The position numbers and the translations under genes were made by a program. A stretch of 64,000 nt of DNA from Bryobacterales bacterium (GTDB lineage Bacteria > Acidobacteriota > Terriglobia > Bryobacterales > UBA6623), in NCBI GenBank assembly GCA_028819575.1, contig JAPPLB010000123.1:1-64000 (forward strand), in the 5' to 3' direction. The notes under the pieces are model-generated. The model ran no database searches, was not told the DNA's origin, and worked only from the letters and a program-made list of their open reading frames with translations. The first letter of the stretch is position 1. Each line of letters opens with the position of its first letter. Positions 15,991-59,952 of this stretch are shown here, one piece after another.

Positions 15991-15998
15991 ACAGGTAG

Positions 15999-16140
15999 CC
16001 TGTATTTCTCACTGCGCGGCGAGGCGAAGTGGGTGAGAGGGGCGTCAGGACGAGGCGCAAGCCGGGCGGAGGAAAAAGGCGCGAGCCGCTTGGCGCGCGC
16101 AGGCGTACTTGAAAGTACATCGAGCACGGCATGCCAAGCT
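15999..16140 (+). repeat. Dispersed inverted-repeat element, copy A (right end lost)
   Basis: The left end CCTGTATTTCTCACT (15999-16013) matches the family terminus at 13 of 15 positions and is preceded by TAG. The interior (GGCGAGGCGAAG, GCCGCTTGGCGCGCGCAGG, GTACTTGAAAGTACAT, CGAGCACGGC) matches copy C in the same orientation. The right arm is lost: after GCACGGCATGCCAAGC the sequence diverges into a GC-rich palindrome just before the next gene. The end coordinate is approximate. Confidence 0.8.
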
Positions 16141-17289: not shown

Positions 17290-17469
17290 CCTGCATTTCT
17301 CACCCCGGGGCGGGGCGAACGGTAGGACGAGGTACGAGTACGAGCCGCTTGGCGTGCGCAGGTGTACGTTATCCGTACATCGAGCACGGCCAGCAAGCAT
17401 TGCGAAGGAAAAGCGAAATCATGGCGGCCATATCGCGTGCTTCGGCCGTCATGTGGTGAGATACGCAGG
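17290..17469 (+). repeat. Dispersed inverted-repeat element, copy B (complete)
   Basis: 180 bp. The left terminus CCTGCATTTCTCACC (17290-17304) and right terminus GGTGAGATACGCAGG (17455-17469) are inverted repeats at 13 of 15 positions, flanked by TAG and CTA. The interior has GCCGCTTGGCGTGCGCAGG, a TGTACG-TTAT-CCGTACA hairpin and CGAGCACGGC. The right flank CTA (17470-17472) is the stop codon of the minus-strand M81 gene. The copy lies in a convergent gap, so it may act as a two-way transcription end. Confidence 0.88.
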
Positions 17470-19023
17470 CTAACGTGCTGCAAGATCTGGACGGGCGCGT
17501 TTGAACACGAAGTGCTTCGGATTGACGGAAGTGACGCCCGGACTATCGACGGTGATCACCTGAGCCGAGATCGGCTCATAGGCAGCCCGCGGCGCAATCA
17601 CTCCCTTGGCGACCAGGATCTTCTGTCGCTCGGGATACACACCGCAACTCCTCATCTGGTGCAGGCTGAACGGAATGACGCGCTTGCTGGTAAGCATCAG
17701 GATGTTCGGAAAATCGCGCGTCGATCCCTCGACTTCGATCACCGAGGTCAAACCCATATCCCAATAGCGGCCGCCCCCGTGACGCACTTCAGGTTCCACG
17801 AATCTTCCGTCGTGCAGCGACTTCACCCGGCCGCGAATGCGCACCGGATGGCCGTGCATGGAGTCCGACTTGCCGCCGACGAGCATGTCGAACTTACCGT
17901 CGATCCCGGCGGCGAAAGCCGCCTCGTTCGATTCCTTATCGTTGATGACAACGACCCAACCCTCGGCCCTCTGCTCGAGCAACGGATGGAGGATGAAAGT
18001 ACTGTCGCCCGGGGAGCCGCCGCCGATGTTATCGCCTGTGTCCATGAGGGTGATCGGAAATTCGTCAGCGGCCATCGCCATCTTCACGGCCTCCGAGGGG
18101 CTCGGCAGGTCCAACACGAGCTGGTCGCTGACGGCCAGCAGCATATCCGCTAGGCGCTTCGCCTCGCGCCGCGCCAACTCGGGGTCGTTATCCGTCACCA
18201 CGACCACGCTTGGGCCCATCGCCGGGATGTCGGACCACTGATATCCCGCCGACACGCTCGCGGCCAGGATCGTTGGATTCTGCTCCATCCGTCGGCTCTC
18301 GTCAACGATCGGCTTGAGCGGCTCGGTATACGTGTTTTGAAATACGAGATTGTAGAAAAGCGCGGGTTTCTCGATCGCGGAGGTGGGCTTCACCTTGCCC
18401 AGGATCGTGTTCGCCAGGATGCGCGCTGAGTGCACCCCTCTCTCTCTGGCGTCAAGGTGGGGATTCTCTTTGTAGGTGATGACCGCCGTCGCCTCCTCGA
18501 CGATCTCCTTCGACACGTTGGCGTGAAAATCGTGGGTGACCACGATTGGGATGTCGTTGCCGAAGGCAGTACGCACCCGCCGAACGACTTCCGCATCGGC
18601 GTGCGGATAGCTCTCGGCCACCATCGTGCCGTGCAGGTAGAGCAGGATGCCATCGAGTTTCGGCGCCGCCTGAAGACGCTCGATCAGCTCCTGCGTCAGA
18701 GCCTCGAACGCCTCGTCCGTCACCATGCCGATCGTTTGCGGCCCGGCGAGGATGGTCGGATAGAGTTCCAGTCCGTTCAGCCTGGCGCCCTCGATGTGCC
18801 CCGCCGTCACGTTGGTGCCGCCCGTGTATTCGTCCAGAATCTCCTGACCGCGCAAAATACCCTTTGCTCCGCGCAACCCCCTTGCAAAATCAGCGAGCGT
18901 GGTCTTCCTCGGATTGAACGTGTTCGTCTCGTGAGCGATACCACCCAATCCGACCAGAAGATCACGATCCTGCGCCGTCACGGTAGTTGCCAGTAGTAAA
19001 AGGAAGATGAATGGTTTGAGCAC
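17470..19023 (-). CDS. M81 family metallopeptidase (MlrC-like)
   Basis: 517 residues with a signal peptide (MLKPFIFLLLLATTVTAQ). The MlrC hallmark VGLGGIAHETNTFNP follows. Further family motifs are YLHGTMVAESYPHADAEVVR, VVTHDFHANVSKEIV, YKENPHLDARERG and DTGDNIGGGSPGDSTF. MlrC cleaves linearised microcystin, but most members are of unknown substrate. The start is a GTG. A TACAAT box lies 8-13 bases upstream on this strand (19031-19036), suggesting a very short leader. The stop codon is the edge of repeat copy B. Confidence 0.93.
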   Translation of the reverse strand: MLKPFIFLLLLATTVTAQDRDLLVGLGGIAHETNTFNPRKTTLADFARGLRGAKGILRGQEILDEYTGGTNVTAGHIEGARLNGLELYPTILAGPQTIGMVTDEAFEALTQELIERLQAAPKLDGILLYLHGTMVAESYPHADAEVVRRVRTAFGNDIPIVVTHDFHANVSKEIVEEATAVITYKENPHLDARERGVHSARILANTILGKVKPTSAIEKPALFYNLVFQNTYTEPLKPIVDESRRMEQNPTILAASVSAGYQWSDIPAMGPSVVVVTDNDPELARREAKRLADMLLAVSDQLVLDLPSPSEAVKMAMAADEFPITLMDTGDNIGGGSPGDSTFILHPLLEQRAEGWVVVINDKESNEAAFAAGIDGKFDMLVGGKSDSMHGHPVRIRGRVKSLHDGRFVEPEVRHGGGRYWDMGLTSVIEVEGSTRDFPNILMLTSKRVIPFSLHQMRSCGVYPERQKILVAKGVIAPRAAYEPISAQVITVDSPGVTSVNPKHFVFKRARPDLAAR

Positions 19024-19030
19024 GGCTGTG

Positions 19031-19098
19031 ATTGTAGCGCCTCGCGGAGGAAGGGCAGGATCGAACCGGGTCGTCGATCAGCGAGTGCTGCCTACAAT
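19031..19098. promoter_or_regulatory. Divergent promoter region with two TACAAT boxes
   Basis: Between the minus-strand M81 gene and the plus-strand TPR/ASPIC gene, TACAAT occurs once on each strand: minus strand at 19031-19036, plus strand at 19093-19098. Both fit -10 boxes. No good -35 box is seen at 16-18 bases for either. The plus-strand box overlaps the first candidate ATG (19097), which raises the chance that the real start is the ATG at 19115. Confidence 0.4.
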
Positions 19099-21481
19099 GA
19101 GAGACCCCGAAGCCATGCTGCAGCCTTCTCCCTCTTGGCGGTTCCGTCGATCGATCGTGATGCTTCTGCTCGCCATGGCGGCAACGGCAGGGGCGCTTGC
19201 CCAAGATGCCCTGCGGCAGGCTCGTCAACTTTATCAGCGAGGCGATTTCGGGGGCGCGGTCGTCGTTTTGAATCGACACCTCTCAGTGGAGCCGGAAGAC
19301 GACCAGGCCCGCATGCTGCTCGGGGTCTGCCACCAGCGCAGCGGCAACAACGAAGCTGCGGAGGCGGCTTTCCTCATGCTGGAGCACCGGAATCCGGGCA
19401 ATCCGCAAGTGTTGTTCATGCTGGCCTTGACACAGTTCACGACTGGGAAATACGACCAGGCCGAGTCGAATGGCTTGAAGGTCATCGCGTCGGGAACACA
19501 GGCCGGCCCCGCTCACCACCTGCTGGGTATGGTCTACGAAGAGCGGAACGCGCTTGACAAGGCCCTCGCTTCGTATGAACAAGCCATCAAGGCGGACCGG
19601 CAGCTCGTCGACGCTTATCTGAGCTCGGGGAGCGTCCTGCTGAAGCTGCGCCGTCCGGCCGACGCGCTGCCGATGTTGGACAAGGCGGTGGAGCTCCGTC
19701 CTGGTCTTGCCGAGGCTCACTATCACCGGGCCCGCGCACGAATTGAATTGGGACAACTGTCCGCTGCGCGAGAGGACCTGGAAACCACTGTCCGCCTGCA
19801 AGACCATCGCCAGGCCCGCAGCTTACTGGAGCGGGTGAAGTCAGGCGAGTTTGCAACGGTAAAGAGAATGGCGAAGGGAGATGCCCCGAAACCGCCGGCC
19901 ATGCTCTCGCCAATTCGCTTCCGCAATGTTGCCGGCCAGGCGGGTCTCGACTTCGTAGTCGCGAATCACCCTACCGCAGACAAGCACCTCGTTGAGACGA
20001 TGGCCGGCGGTATGGCGGCTTTCGACTACGACAACGACGGGCTCACCGACATCTTCTTCGCGAACGGAGCCGAGACCCCCAGCCTCGTGAAGACATTCGC
20101 GAAATACCACAATCGCCTCTTCCGCAACGTCGGGAACATGGAATTTCGCGACGTGACCGCGGCCGCAGGGTTGCAGGGCACTGGTTATTCGATGGGGGCC
20201 GCGGCCGGAGACTTCGACAATGATGGCTACGTGGACTTGTTCGTCCCCGGCGCCTTCGGCAACCTGCTCTACCGCAATCTCGGCAACGGACGTTTCGAAG
20301 AGATCACGGCGAATGCGGGCGTCAAGAGCGATCGCTGGTCCGTTGCGGCCGGCTGGTTTGACTATGACAACGACGGTTTTCTTGATCTTTTCGTCGTTGA
20401 CTACCTCCAGTGGTCACCCGAGAACAATCTCTACTGCGGTGACAACGCCAAGAAGCTGCGCACTTACTGTCATCCCAAATACTACGAGGGTCATCCGAAC
20501 ACCCTCTACCGCAACAAGAAGGACGGCACTTTCGAAGACGTCTCGGAGGCGTCGGGCATCGCGTCCCACGTCGGCAAGGGTATGAGCGTTGCCTTTGCAG
20601 ACTACGACCAGGACGGGCACGCCGACGTATTCATCACCAACGACACCGAACCCAACTTCCTTTTTCGCAACAGGGGAGACGGCGTGTTCGAGGAAGTGGC
20701 TCTGGAGGCTGGCCCCGCGCTCACCGACGATGGCCGGTCCGTTTCCGCCATGGGAATGGATTTCCGGGACTACGATAACGACTCGCTTCCCGACATCATC
20801 TTCACGGCGCTCGTTGGCGAGACATTCCCGGTCTTTCGCAACGAGGGGGGAGGTGTCTTCCGGGACGCCACCTACGGCACGAAAGTGGGCCGCCTCAGCA
20901 TGGGTCTCGCTGGCTGGGGCATCGGGTTGGTCGACTTCAACAACGACGGTTGGAAAGACCTCTTCACGGCGAACTCTCATGTCACCGACAACATCGAAGA
21001 ATTCTCAAGCGAGAAATACCGCCAAAACAATGCCGTTTGGGCAAACACGGGCCACGGGACTTTCCAAGATATGTCGTCCGGGTCAGGTGAAGCCTTTCAA
21101 ATACAACGCGCGCACCGCGGCAGCGCCTTCGCGGATTTCAACAACGACGGCCGCGTTGACGTTGTCGTCTCATCGCTCGAAGGACCCGCTGAACTCTGGG
21201 AAAATATCAGCGCCCCGGAGAAGCACTGGATTCGAATTCGTTTGAAAGGTGTTGGAAGCAACCGTGATGCTATTGGCGCGCGTGTGTCCGTCGACGGACA
21301 GCACAACCAAATGACGTCGAGCGTGGGTTACTCGTCGTCGAGCCTGGTGGGAGTGCACTTCGGCCTGGGGGATCGTGAACGGGTGTCCCGTATCGAGATT
21401 CTCTGGCCCAGCGGAGCCCATCAGGTCTTGCAGGACGTGGCTTCCGACCAGGTGCTGACCGTGATCGAACCCGACTGTTAG
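19097..21481 (+). CDS. Secreted TPR / FG-GAP repeat / ASPIC-UnbV protein
   Basis: About 794 residues. A signal peptide (IVMLLLAMAATAGALAQ) is followed by TPR repeats (roughly 35-260). A seven-bladed propeller of FG-GAP/VCBS repeats follows, with many Asp-rich calcium loops (FDYDNDGLTDIFFANG, FDNDGYVDLFVPGAFG, FADFNNDGRVDVVVSS). The ASPIC/UnbV domain closes the protein (HWIRIRLKGVGSNRDAIGAR, RIEILWPSG). It is exported, function unknown; such proteins are common in Acidobacteriota and Planctomycetota. The start is ATG 19097 or 19115. The stop TAG is the edge of repeat copy C. Confidence 0.9.
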   Translation: MRDPEAMLQPSPSWRFRRSIVMLLLAMAATAGALAQDALRQARQLYQRGDFGGAVVVLNRHLSVEPEDDQARMLLGVCHQRSGNNEAAEAAFLMLEHRNPGNPQVLFMLALTQFTTGKYDQAESNGLKVIASGTQAGPAHHLLGMVYEERNALDKALASYEQAIKADRQLVDAYLSSGSVLLKLRRPADALPMLDKAVELRPGLAEAHYHRARARIELGQLSAAREDLETTVRLQDHRQARSLLERVKSGEFATVKRMAKGDAPKPPAMLSPIRFRNVAGQAGLDFVVANHPTADKHLVETMAGGMAAFDYDNDGLTDIFFANGAETPSLVKTFAKYHNRLFRNVGNMEFRDVTAAAGLQGTGYSMGAAAGDFDNDGYVDLFVPGAFGNLLYRNLGNGRFEEITANAGVKSDRWSVAAGWFDYDNDGFLDLFVVDYLQWSPENNLYCGDNAKKLRTYCHPKYYEGHPNTLYRNKKDGTFEDVSEASGIASHVGKGMSVAFADYDQDGHADVFITNDTEPNFLFRNRGDGVFEEVALEAGPALTDDGRSVSAMGMDFRDYDNDSLPDIIFTALVGETFPVFRNEGGGVFRDATYGTKVGRLSMGLAGWGIGLVDFNNDGWKDLFTANSHVTDNIEEFSSEKYRQNNAVWANTGHGTFQDMSSGSGEAFQIQRAHRGSAFADFNNDGRVDVVVSSLEGPAELWENISAPEKHWIRIRLKGVGSNRDAIGARVSVDGQHNQMTSSVGYSSSSLVGVHFGLGDRERVSRIEILWPSGAHQVLQDVASDQVLTVIEPDC

Positions 21482-21658
21482 CCTGCATTTCTCACCACGC
21501 GGCGAGGCGAAGTGCGCGAGAGGGCCGTCAGGACCAGGCGCGCGCCGCTTGGCGCGCGCAGGCGTACTTGAACAGTACGTTGAGCACGGCAAGCAAGCGC
21601 AACGAAGTCCTGGCGGTCGTATCGTGTGCTTCGACCGTCGGGTGGTGAGAAATGCAGG
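21482..21658 (+). repeat. Dispersed inverted-repeat element, copy C (complete, perfect ends)
   Basis: 177 bp with perfect 15-bp terminal inverted repeats: CCTGCATTTCTCACC (21482-21496) and GGTGAGAAATGCAGG (21644-21658). The left flank TAG (21479-21481) is the stop codon of the TPR/ASPIC gene; the right flank is TTA. Inside are a GCGCGCC-GCTT-GGCGCGC hairpin and GTACT-TGAAC-AGTAC, then GAGCACGGCAAGCAAGCGC. It is about as similar to the reverse complement of copy D as two members of one family should be (most positions identical by eye). Confidence 0.92.
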
Positions 21659-23198
<1,540 letters not shown>

Positions 23199-35545: not shown

Positions 35546-35587
35546 CCTGCAAGTCTCAACACGCCGGGAGGCGGGGAGGCATGCAGG
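35546..35587 (+). repeat. Miniature inverted-repeat element, copy F (42 bp)
   Basis: CCTGCAAGTCTCAAC (35546-35560) and GGGGAGGCATGCAGG (35573-35587) are imperfect inverted repeats (11 of 15) with only 12 bases between them. The flanks are TAG and CTA. The right-flank CTA (35588-35590) is the stop codon of the minus-strand PHP gene. It lies in a convergent gap. It looks like a copy reduced to its termini. Confidence 0.75.
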
Positions 35588-43577: not shown

Positions 43578-43959
43578 GTAACGGAACCATCTGCTGCACC
43601 GGCAGAGGCAGCACGTGGTGAGCAAGGCAGGTCAGGAGGGCGACAATCCCAGCCCGCTTTTCTCAGCTCCGGCGGCACAGAAGCGTACCGCGCACATGGT
43701 GAGACATTCAGGTCCAAGCCTGCCTTTCTCCCCACCCGACGGCCGCAATACGCGATAACAAGGCCGTGATTCGTGACCCAAAAACCTGGGCAGGCGGTAC
43801 GACCGTTGCTCCAGGGTGGCTTGCATTGAGGCCGAGGCTCGTGCAAGGCCGTGTTTCGTGAAATACCTTAAAGGCCACGTTGCTTGCGCCAAGCGGCTCG
43901 CGCCTCGTCCTGACGGGCCTCTCACCCACTTTGCCTCGCCACGTGGTGAGACATGCAGG
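43578..43959. repeat. Tandem array of inverted-repeat elements between TPR gene and lon
   Basis: 382 bases without a gene. Three right-end sequences occur in series: GGTGAGCAAGGCAGG (from 43616), GGTGAGACATTCAGG (43698-43712) and GGTGAGACATGCAGG (43945-43959). Two left ends precede the last two: CCCGCTTTTCTCAGC (43653-43667) and CCTGCCTTTCTCCCC (43719-43733). Copy G is about 60 bp (43653-43712), copy E about 241 bp. The whole gap is thus made of family members. Confidence 0.75.
43719..43959 (-). repeat. Dispersed inverted-repeat element, copy E (241 bp)
   Basis: Left end CCTGCCTTTCTCCCC, right end GGTGAGACATGCAGG. The interior runs in the same orientation as copy D: CCCGACGGCCGC, ACGCGATAACAAGGCC, then GCCAAGCGGCTCGCGCCTCG, TCCTGACGGGCCTCTCAC and CCACGTGGTGAG. 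It carries about 60 extra bases in the middle with two similar units (GGCCGTGATTCGTGACC and GGCCGTGTTTCGTGAAA). The right flank TCA (43960-43962) is the stop codon of lon. Confidence 0.82.
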
Positions 43960-58055: not shown

Positions 58056-58433
58056 ATGAAGACGAAAACTAACGTCCTTACTCCGCAGGAACTCGAAATC
58101 ATGAAGGTCGTCTGGGAGCGGGGAGCAAGCACCGTCCGCGATGTCTACGAGCTTCTTCGCAAAAAGCGCAAGGTCGCCTACACAACGGTGATGACGATGA
58201 TGAACATCCTGGTCGACAAGAAGCACCTGCAACGAGAGAAAGTAGACGGCGCGTATCGCTACGAGCCGACCAAGCCGAAGAAGCAGGTTGTGGGCGCAAT
58301 GGTGCGGGACTTTGTCGGCCGGGTCTTCGATGGATCGGCGCGGCCCTTGTTGCTGCAACTGGTCGAGGATCGGCACTTGACCGAAGCGGACCTGCAAGAG
58401 ATCGAGCAACTCATCGAGGAGAAGCTGAAATGA
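58056..58433 (+). CDS. BlaI/MecI/CopY family repressor
   Basis: 125 residues. The winged helix is about residues 9-75: LTPQELEIMKVVWERGASTV, AYTTVMTMMNILVDKKHLQR. The C-terminal dimerisation region ends LTEADLQEIEQLIEEKLK. It represses its own operon until the M56 sensor protein triggers its cleavage. The ATG sits right behind an operator-like palindrome and there is hardly room for a ribosome site. It overlaps the M56 gene by four bases (ATGA). Confidence 0.93.
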   Translation: MKTKTNVLTPQELEIMKVVWERGASTVRDVYELLRKKRKVAYTTVMTMMNILVDKKHLQREKVDGAYRYEPTKPKKQVVGAMVRDFVGRVFDGSARPLLLQLVEDRHLTEADLQEIEQLIEEKLK

Positions 58434-59776
58434 TGTCGTGGTGGGTTGGGAATCTGTTTGACTACTCATTGCAGGTCATGCTGTTGATTACGGCCGGCAG
58501 CCTGCTTGCGGCGGTGTTTCGGCTGCGCGAGCCGCGAGTCCGGCTTGCCTGCCGGCAAACACTTCTGGCCTGTTGCCTGCTGCTGCCGCTGGTGCAGCCT
58601 TGGCGCGAACCGGTTGCGACCCCGGCCTCGGACTTCACCCTGGCGGCTCCGGTAGCTGCTGTGGGCAATGGGCTGGACGAGTCGTGGGGTACTGTGGCCG
58701 CTTTCGTGCTCGGAGGCGGAGCCGTCTTTCATCTGCTGTGGTTGGGCGCCGGGATCATCCGGCTCCGTCGTCTGAAAAAGTCGGCGCGACGATTCGATGC
58801 CCGCGAGGAACGTGTTCCGGTGCTCACTACAGGGAACGTAGCTCCTCAGTTTCTTGTCACTTCACTGGTGGATGGACCCGTCACGTTCGGCTGGTTTCGA
58901 CCGGTCATACTTCTGCCGGAATCGTTTGCCGAGACCCATCCCGGAACGCAATCAGCCGTACTCACCCATGAGCTGGTTCACGTAGAGCGCCGTGACTGGT
59001 TGTGGACCGCAGCGGAAGAAATCATCCGGTCCCTGTTGTGGTTTCATCCGGCTGTTCGTTGGCTGATCAGCCGGATTCAGCTTGCTCGCGAGCAGGTGGT
59101 GGACCGTGAAGTCGTGAACCGCACCGGTGACCGTGAAGCGTATCTGCGCGCGTTGGTGGAGATCACAAAGGCTCGCGCCGCTCCGGCGTTCCCGGCAGTT
59201 CCCGCCTTCCTGCGAAGGTGGCATCTCAAAGCAAGAGTCCAAACTCTCTTGGAGGAGGTATCGATGACGAAGTCTCGAATGGTCGTTTCGCTGGCCGCGG
59301 CGGCTGTTTTGTTGACCGCAGTGGGCGTCTTGGCGGTCTCTTACTTCCCTTTGCACACGGATTCCCAACAGGCGCGGGATCTTGAACGCGGCGAGGACGG
59401 AGCCTCCCCACGCCACTTTCGCGATCTCGATGAACGCCAAAGGCGCAATATCCTCGAAGGTCTTGAAGGCCGGACTCGTCAGGGGAATCTCGAACGCGTC
59501 GGGAACGGAGTCTCCGCACCCCGGCTCCTGAACAAGGTCGAGCCGGTGTACAGCGAGGAGGCGCGCGAAGCGAAAGTGCAGGGAACCGCAGTCCTTGAAA
59601 TGGAAGTCTGGCCCGATGGCAAGGCTCACAATATCCGAGTCGTGCGCGGCCTCGGCAGTGGGCTCGACGAGCAAGCGGTGAAAGCGATCGAGCAGTGGGA
59701 GTTCGAGCCCGGGATTAAGGGTGGCGAGCCGGTGCGCGTCGCCGCCACTGTCGAGATGAACTTCCGGATGAACTAA
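58430..59776 (+). CDS. BlaR1-like M56 metallopeptidase with C-terminal TonB domain
   Basis: 448 residues. Three N-terminal membrane segments (MLLITAGSLLAAVF, LLACCLLLPLV, AAFVLGGGAVFHLLWLGAGI) precede the cytoplasmic M56 protease with the zinc motif AVLTHELVHVERRDWLW. A further membrane span (VVSLAAAAVLLTAVGVLAV) follows at about residues 285-305. Instead of the penicillin-binding sensor of BlaR1 the protein ends in a TonB-C domain: APRLLNKVEPVYSEEAREAK, EQAVKAIEQWEFEPG. It may sense or connect envelope state to BlaI cleavage. The TAA stop is the edge of repeat copy D. Confidence 0.9.
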   Translation: MMSWWVGNLFDYSLQVMLLITAGSLLAAVFRLREPRVRLACRQTLLACCLLLPLVQPWREPVATPASDFTLAAPVAAVGNGLDESWGTVAAFVLGGGAVFHLLWLGAGIIRLRRLKKSARRFDAREERVPVLTTGNVAPQFLVTSLVDGPVTFGWFRPVILLPESFAETHPGTQSAVLTHELVHVERRDWLWTAAEEIIRSLLWFHPAVRWLISRIQLAREQVVDREVVNRTGDREAYLRALVEITKARAAPAFPAVPAFLRRWHLKARVQTLLEEVSMTKSRMVVSLAAAAVLLTAVGVLAVSYFPLHTDSQQARDLERGEDGASPRHFRDLDERQRRNILEGLEGRTRQGNLERVGNGVSAPRLLNKVEPVYSEEAREAKVQGTAVLEMEVWPDGKAHNIRVVRGLGSGLDEQAVKAIEQWEFEPGIKGGEPVRVAATVEMNFRMN

Positions 59777-59952
59777 CCTGCATTTCTCACCTCCCGACGG
59801 TCGAAGCACGCGATACGACCGCCATGACTTCGTTGCGCTTTCTTGCCGTGCTCAATGTACCGTCGAGTACACCTGCGCGCGGCAAGCGGCGCGCGCCTCG
59901 CCCTGACGGCCCTCTCACGCACTTCGTCTTGCCACGTGGTGAGAAATACAGG
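59777..59952 (-). repeat. Dispersed inverted-repeat element, copy D (complete)
   Basis: 176 bp in the opposite orientation to copies A-C. The termini CCTGCATTTCTCACC (59777-59791) and GGTGAGAAATACAGG (59938-59952) match at 14 of 15. The interior reads CCCGACGGTCGAAGCACGCG, GACTTCGTTGCGCTTTCTTG, CCGTGCTCAATGTACC, GAGTACACCTGCGCGCGG, as the reverse complement of copy C. The left flank TAA is the stop of the M56 gene; it fills a convergent gap with only 10 bases to spare. Confidence 0.92.

Follow-up and report, generated by a model that had tools for sequence, protein, structure and literature searches.

A strand-specific fold conserved in the core of IS1380-type MITEs from diverged bacteria

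A 177-bp mobile element and its relatives in the window

The window analysed here is a 64,000-nucleotide stretch from the draft genome of a Bryobacterales bacterium (G000; 5.37 Mb in 200 contigs), and a second genome of the same genus (G002) was available for comparison. A repeat with a terminal stem had been recognised in the window in an earlier note from the sequence alone. Both the repeat and the stem are present, although the stem is 17 bp long and not 15 bp as had been claimed, and the identity of the repeat as an IS1380-type MITE had been missed. The element and its relatives in the window are as follows.

21482..21658, + strand: IS1380-type MITE, 177 bp, one end-to-end rod-like hairpin (evidence: ends, TTAG/TTAG duplication, fold z -11.5)
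21478..21481, no strand: left target-site duplication TTAG, its TAG serving as stop codon for the upstream ORF 19007-21481
21659..21662, no strand: right target-site duplication TTAG
21482..21498, + strand: left terminal inverted repeat CCTGCATTTCTCACCAC, its first 16 bases matching the left end of the L040 IS1380 element
21642..21658, - strand: right terminal inverted repeat
59777..59952, - strand: second complete element, core 59816-59912, CTAA/CTAA duplication
17290..17469, + strand: diverged element (copy B of the earlier note), partial core 17342-17398
15996..16136, + strand: truncated element (copy A of the earlier note), partial core 16085-16136
43719..43959, - strand: variant-class element, core replaced by CACGAATCACG-type sequence
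35546..35587, no strand: mini-element, 42 bp, inverted ends only, between CTAG and CTAA
51011-51101: tRNA gene, the sole Rfam match within the window

Two intact IS1380-family elements, L037 and L040, are present in G000. They are 97.5% identical to one another, their proteins match NF033539 transpos_IS1380 at 385 bits, their termini are CCYGCATTTCTCACCA and CCCGGATATCTCACCA, and they are flanked by CTAA/CTAA and CTAG/CTAG. The first 16 end bases and the YTAR target are common to the repeat and to both of these elements, and this identifies the repeat as an IS1380-type MITE. The copies in G000 are likewise flanked by YTAR. The outer two bases of the left and right flanking tetranucleotides match each other more often than they do in shuffles, with identical tetranucleotides at 20 of 55 copies compared to a mean of 6.9 in shuffles, and this agreement indicates a 4-bp target duplication. 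Thus, the 177-bp repeat is shown to be a non-autonomous IS1380-type transposon with 16-17 bp inverted ends and 4-bp YTAR duplications. The autonomous IS1380 elements lack the core described below, whereas the MITE lacks a transposase gene. Inverted ends matching at 11 or more of 16 positions were found in 79 of 83 diverse elements checked, mostly from Acidobacteriota, and IS1380 loci in G273, G546 and G387 have one or both ends of the type found in the local MITE. No IS1380 gene was detected in 10 of 16 core-rich genomes, which is weak evidence because these assemblies are drafts.

The element is abundant in G000. A search with the first 14 bases (at most one mismatch) returned 1,066 element ends, compared to 2 for a reversed control, and a search with a 24-base core motif (at most three mismatches) returned 327 cores, compared to none for the control. 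Within 0.9 Mb sampled from this genome, elements occur at 174 places, 85 of them full length, and the best copies are 95-98% identical to the window copy. Several contigs terminate within copies, and four representative copies gave no match to plasmid records. The interior of the copies is modular. In the sampled part, the core is absent from 25 of 99 paired, TIR-bounded elements, and since these multiplied too, the core is not strictly required.

Two further kinds of element share these ends or flanks. A second class, making up those 25 of 99 paired elements, has the same ends and an TTTTTCACGAATCACGAGACACGAAACACGAATCACGGCC interior of variable length in place of the core (window 43719-43959; L012:15897-16078; L022:4194-4385; L023:5078-5271). 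Mini-elements of about 38-50 bp consist of scarcely more than two inverted ends between YTAR-like tetranucleotides (window 35546-35587; L009:8362-8399; L014:1706-1753; L126 from 5647 onward), and they were also seen in a Thermoanaerobaculales MAG.

A strand-specific rod-like fold in the central 98 nucleotides

Over its whole length the element is one long, imperfect palindrome. Its top strand folds at -120.8 kcal/mol, compared to -72.9 ± 4.2 kcal/mol for shuffles (z = -11.5), and the opposite strand folds at -96.9 kcal/mol. The center of the top strand holds a conserved core made up of a 13-bp outer stem (P1), a 4-bp stem (P2), a 10-bp stem (P3) and an 8-bp apical hairpin (P4), located as follows.

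21522..21619, + strand: structured core, 98 nt, conserved (covariance model R2, 97.0 bits, E 1.4e-22, model E-values being rough by construction)
21522..21534, + strand: P1 5' side, partner 21607-21619; both-sided changes at 12 of 13 pairs (n=39)
21607..21619, + strand: P1 3' side
21540..21543, + strand: P2 5' side (GCGC), pairs with 21597-21600; covaries once other phyla are added
21597..21600, + strand: P2 3' side
21547..21557, + strand: P3 5' side, partner 21584-21594; both-sided changes at 8 of 10 pairs
21584..21594, + strand: P3 3' side, taking in part of the GAGCACGG box of the earlier note
21561..21581, + strand: stem-loop P4, 21561-21568 pairing with 21574-21581 (hairpin 2 of the earlier note)
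21539..21558, + strand: hairpin 1 of the earlier note, without covariation support

Across 39 diverse sequences, the rod formed by these stems has a covariation score of 0.437, compared to 0.177 when shuffled, and 28 of its 35 pairs changed on both sides. Slid versions of the rod scored 0.107 or less in the same alignment, and P2 showed no both-sided change among these sequences. The score was 0.506 in 89 sequences (0.174 shuffled) and 0.669 across phyla (0.198 shuffled), where all 35 pairs changed on both sides. Because the alignments behind these scores were fitted to the model, we repeated the test blind to structure, using MAFFT alignments made without structure, a null that replays substitutions along the tree, and our own implementation of the R-scape idea in place of R-scape itself. 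With 39 sequences, the strongest pairs belonged to P1 and P3. The larger set, 108 non-redundant sequences drawn from several phyla, gave 17 significant column pairs (E<0.05), nearly all of them pairs of P1, P2, P3 or P4. P1, the outer stem of the core, and the long P3 carry most of the covariation. The covariation, together with the strand counts given below, shows that the central 98 nt form a strand-specific, rod-like fold, P1 to P4, which is conserved by covariation in diverged elements of several phyla.

The proposal in the earlier note that a single-stranded fold is maintained through compensating changes is thus strongly supported by the wide alignment, with the addition that the fold is strand-specific. 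The four window copies alone could not have revealed the covariation, for which a wide alignment was needed. Of the structure drawn earlier, hairpin 2 stands as P4: the sequences quoted for its copies are present in the window, and among the 39 diverse sequences 96% of its alignment cells are paired and all 8 pairs show both-sided changes. Hairpin 1, which had also been described as maintained, is not supported. Its covariation is 0.040, compared to 0.041 shuffled, and 65.6% of its cells are paired, compared to 65.5% (n=39). The sequence of this copy allows it to be drawn, yet the predicted fold does not contain it and pairs its bases further downstream, and it competes with P2 and P3. The fold supported by the data is one continuous rod. 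The CGAGCACGG box, put forward as the best-conserved unpaired part, is indeed conserved but is only partly unpaired, since its GC and CG pair in P3.

The outer arms of diverse elements hold a second conserved asymmetric internal loop (5' GUCGCGAGG, 3' CGCAGUAG), which resembles the core loop between P1 and P2 (5' ACAAGG, 3' AACGCAGUAG).

Strand and level of selection

G.U and A.C combinations are found at well-paired positions 225 and 22 times, respectively. When changes were counted on the tree, internal branches gave 19.9 GC->GU changes versus 1.0 GC->AC, and the internal branches of the cross-phylum set gave 25.0 versus 0.6. Unpaired loop positions have no matching bias (C>T 8.4, G>A 8.0), a control that rules out mutation bias as the cause of the G.U excess. 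Since the excess occurs without a loop bias, and a symmetric DNA process would not give it, the fold of the core strand is selected. These counts also bear on the idea that template switching or repair of the palindrome produces the matched changes in the DNA, and that no folded strand is under selection. The palindromic layout of the element, whose outer arms pair too, is what such a process would act upon. However, the process is strand-symmetric and predicts as many A.C as G.U combinations, where a ratio of 20:1 is seen on internal branches with unbiased loops, and it would not have left the conserved, unpaired internal loops in place. We consider this explanation very unlikely.

The ratio of G.U to A.C among single changes is about 26:2.5 on internal branches and 33:18 on terminal branches. 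Rare variants in 67 copies from G000 and G002, a small sample, comprise 14 G.U and 13 A.C combinations, where a tenfold G.U excess would predict about two A.C. This ratio within the genus suggests that inserted copies decay neutrally, and because new copies decay like neutral DNA, selection would act on the lineages that go on jumping. We infer that the fold is kept in multiplying lineages and not in each inserted copy.

The placement of the copies could instead suggest that each one is a host regulatory RNA, a terminator or a stabiliser of mRNA ends, with selection on the fold copy by copy. None of the 85 full copies lies inside a gene predicted by our own hexamer-based call, although 85% of the sequence is coding. 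Many copies abut a stop codon, and about two dozen gene 3' ends adjoining copies have their stop codon inside the duplicated YTAR or next to it. Examples are 21479-21481 and also 59774-59776, at which ORF 58430-59776 ends on the TAA of the CTAA duplication. Terminator-like A and T runs border some cores in the phylum of G665. The stop-codon position is nevertheless explained by the target itself, because a TAA or TAG is part of YTAR, and the stop is re-created upon insertion. Moreover, the copies have no preferred orientation relative to co-directional neighbour genes (23 same, 27 opposite), and the rare variants within the genus break stems as they would under neutrality. A host function for each copy is therefore unlikely.

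MITEs are usually seen as passive leftovers that require their ends alone. We favor, as the probable reading, an IS1380 MITE with a strand-specific core fold that is selected in jumping lineages, the folded strand helping propagation. A putative IS1380 transposase, supplied in trans, would cut and join the ends. The folded strand, less certainly, would take part in the propagation of the element itself, since a fold kept in multiplying lineages suggests that it aids propagation. Strand-specific covariation combined with neutral decay of the copies points to selection on the fold itself for propagation, which makes for a testable model.

The folded strand could be RNA read from the element or single-stranded DNA, and G.U (G.T) is tolerated in both alike. 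A lagging-strand model predicts a bias to one replication strand. The core strand lies on the G-rich strand at 42 of 64 copies in strongly skewed regions of G000, a hint that carries no weight here because G545 (8 of 18 loci) and G522 (10 of 20) have no replication-strand bias. The lack of bias in the latter two genomes weakens the single-stranded DNA version, and we lean slightly toward RNA.

Distribution across bacteria and comparison with known systems

Searches with the covariance model identified cores in the class of the window genome (7 of 299 genomes), in Acidobacteriota as sampled (54 of 396), in the phylum to which G665, a MAG labelled Deltaproteobacteria, belongs (99 of 297) and in the class to which G660, a Gammaproteobacteria MAG, belongs (41 of 369). 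G042, which belongs to the same order as the window genome but to a different family, has kept the core, and its arms have changed. The gammaproteobacterial elements are laid out in the same way, between CTAG duplications and with CCCGCATTTCTCACC ends, and their P2 has changed from GCGC/GCGC to CTTTCGC/GCGAAAG. Thus, the core recurs in at least three broad bacterial groups, usually inside IS1380-type elements of about 176 bp.

Alternatively, the core might be a mobile or structured unit in its own right, which MITEs with various ends have picked up time and again, and the IS1380 ends would then be incidental. The modular interiors in G000 fit this idea, as do other cores that lie between different ends (GGGCRCCTCTAAAAATG, CTTACATAACC, TGTTGAAAAA and AAGCTTCCATGAAG) or have no detectable outer repeats. 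Against it stands the spacing, which in 83 elements is almost always 40 nt, core and 39 nt, for a total of 174-178 bp. This fixed distance from core to IS1380 end holds in most Acidobacteriota copies and many gammaproteobacterial ones, and it argues that core and ends travel together. Repeated capture of this kind is thus quite unlikely, and we retain the reading of an IS1380 MITE with a selected fold. A broader proposal, which we offer tentatively as a possibility, is that of a widespread class of bacterial non-autonomous transposons propagating through a folded 98-nt RNA or single-stranded DNA. MITEs whose ends are unrelated would have this folded strand in common in at least three broad groups; it would raise mobility and could fit between the ends of more than one IS family.

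Among known systems, MITEPye1 is an IS1182-related MITE (PMC11578231) and TIMEs are Tn3-related MITEs (PMC4133298). Like the element described here, they are short and non-coding, with inverted ends, target duplications, the ends of a full-size element and a predicted hairpin. Those reports give single-sequence fold predictions only, whereas the core fold here has strand-specific covariation across phyla; this element also differs in having hundreds of copies and in its relation to IS1380 (NF033539), with which it shares end bases and target in the same genome. Our literature search found no paper that describes MITEs linked to IS1380 or repeats of this type in Acidobacteria.

REPs are single-strand substrates that insert without target duplication. 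Like this element, REPs and BIMEs with RAYT transposases are intergenic, palindromic and present in hundreds of copies. However, GTAG- and CGTC-tagged REPs are 20-40 bp long (PMC3733652), compared to about 177 bp with 4-bp duplications here, and the presence of a duplication argues against membership among RAYT-mobilised REP/BIME elements.

Covarying stems, conserved internal loops and tolerance of G.U are features that the core shares with the structured RNAs of Rfam 15. Unlike them, it matches no Rfam family: searches at the gathering score or at E<=0.5-1 gave only the tRNA of the window and weak, unrelated matches. The covariance model therefore detects elements in three groups that Rfam would leave unannotated.

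High-identity elements were also seen on short contigs from sponge-associated bins, namely L137 (Proteobacteria MAG SB0676_bin_28) and L139 (Rhodothermales MAG Plut_88865). These copies may reflect horizontal transfer or mis-binned contigs, and the cross-phylum claim is independent of both. In the phylum of G665, L330:1197-1597 carries three tandem cores at 152-bp spacing, without IS1380-type ends.
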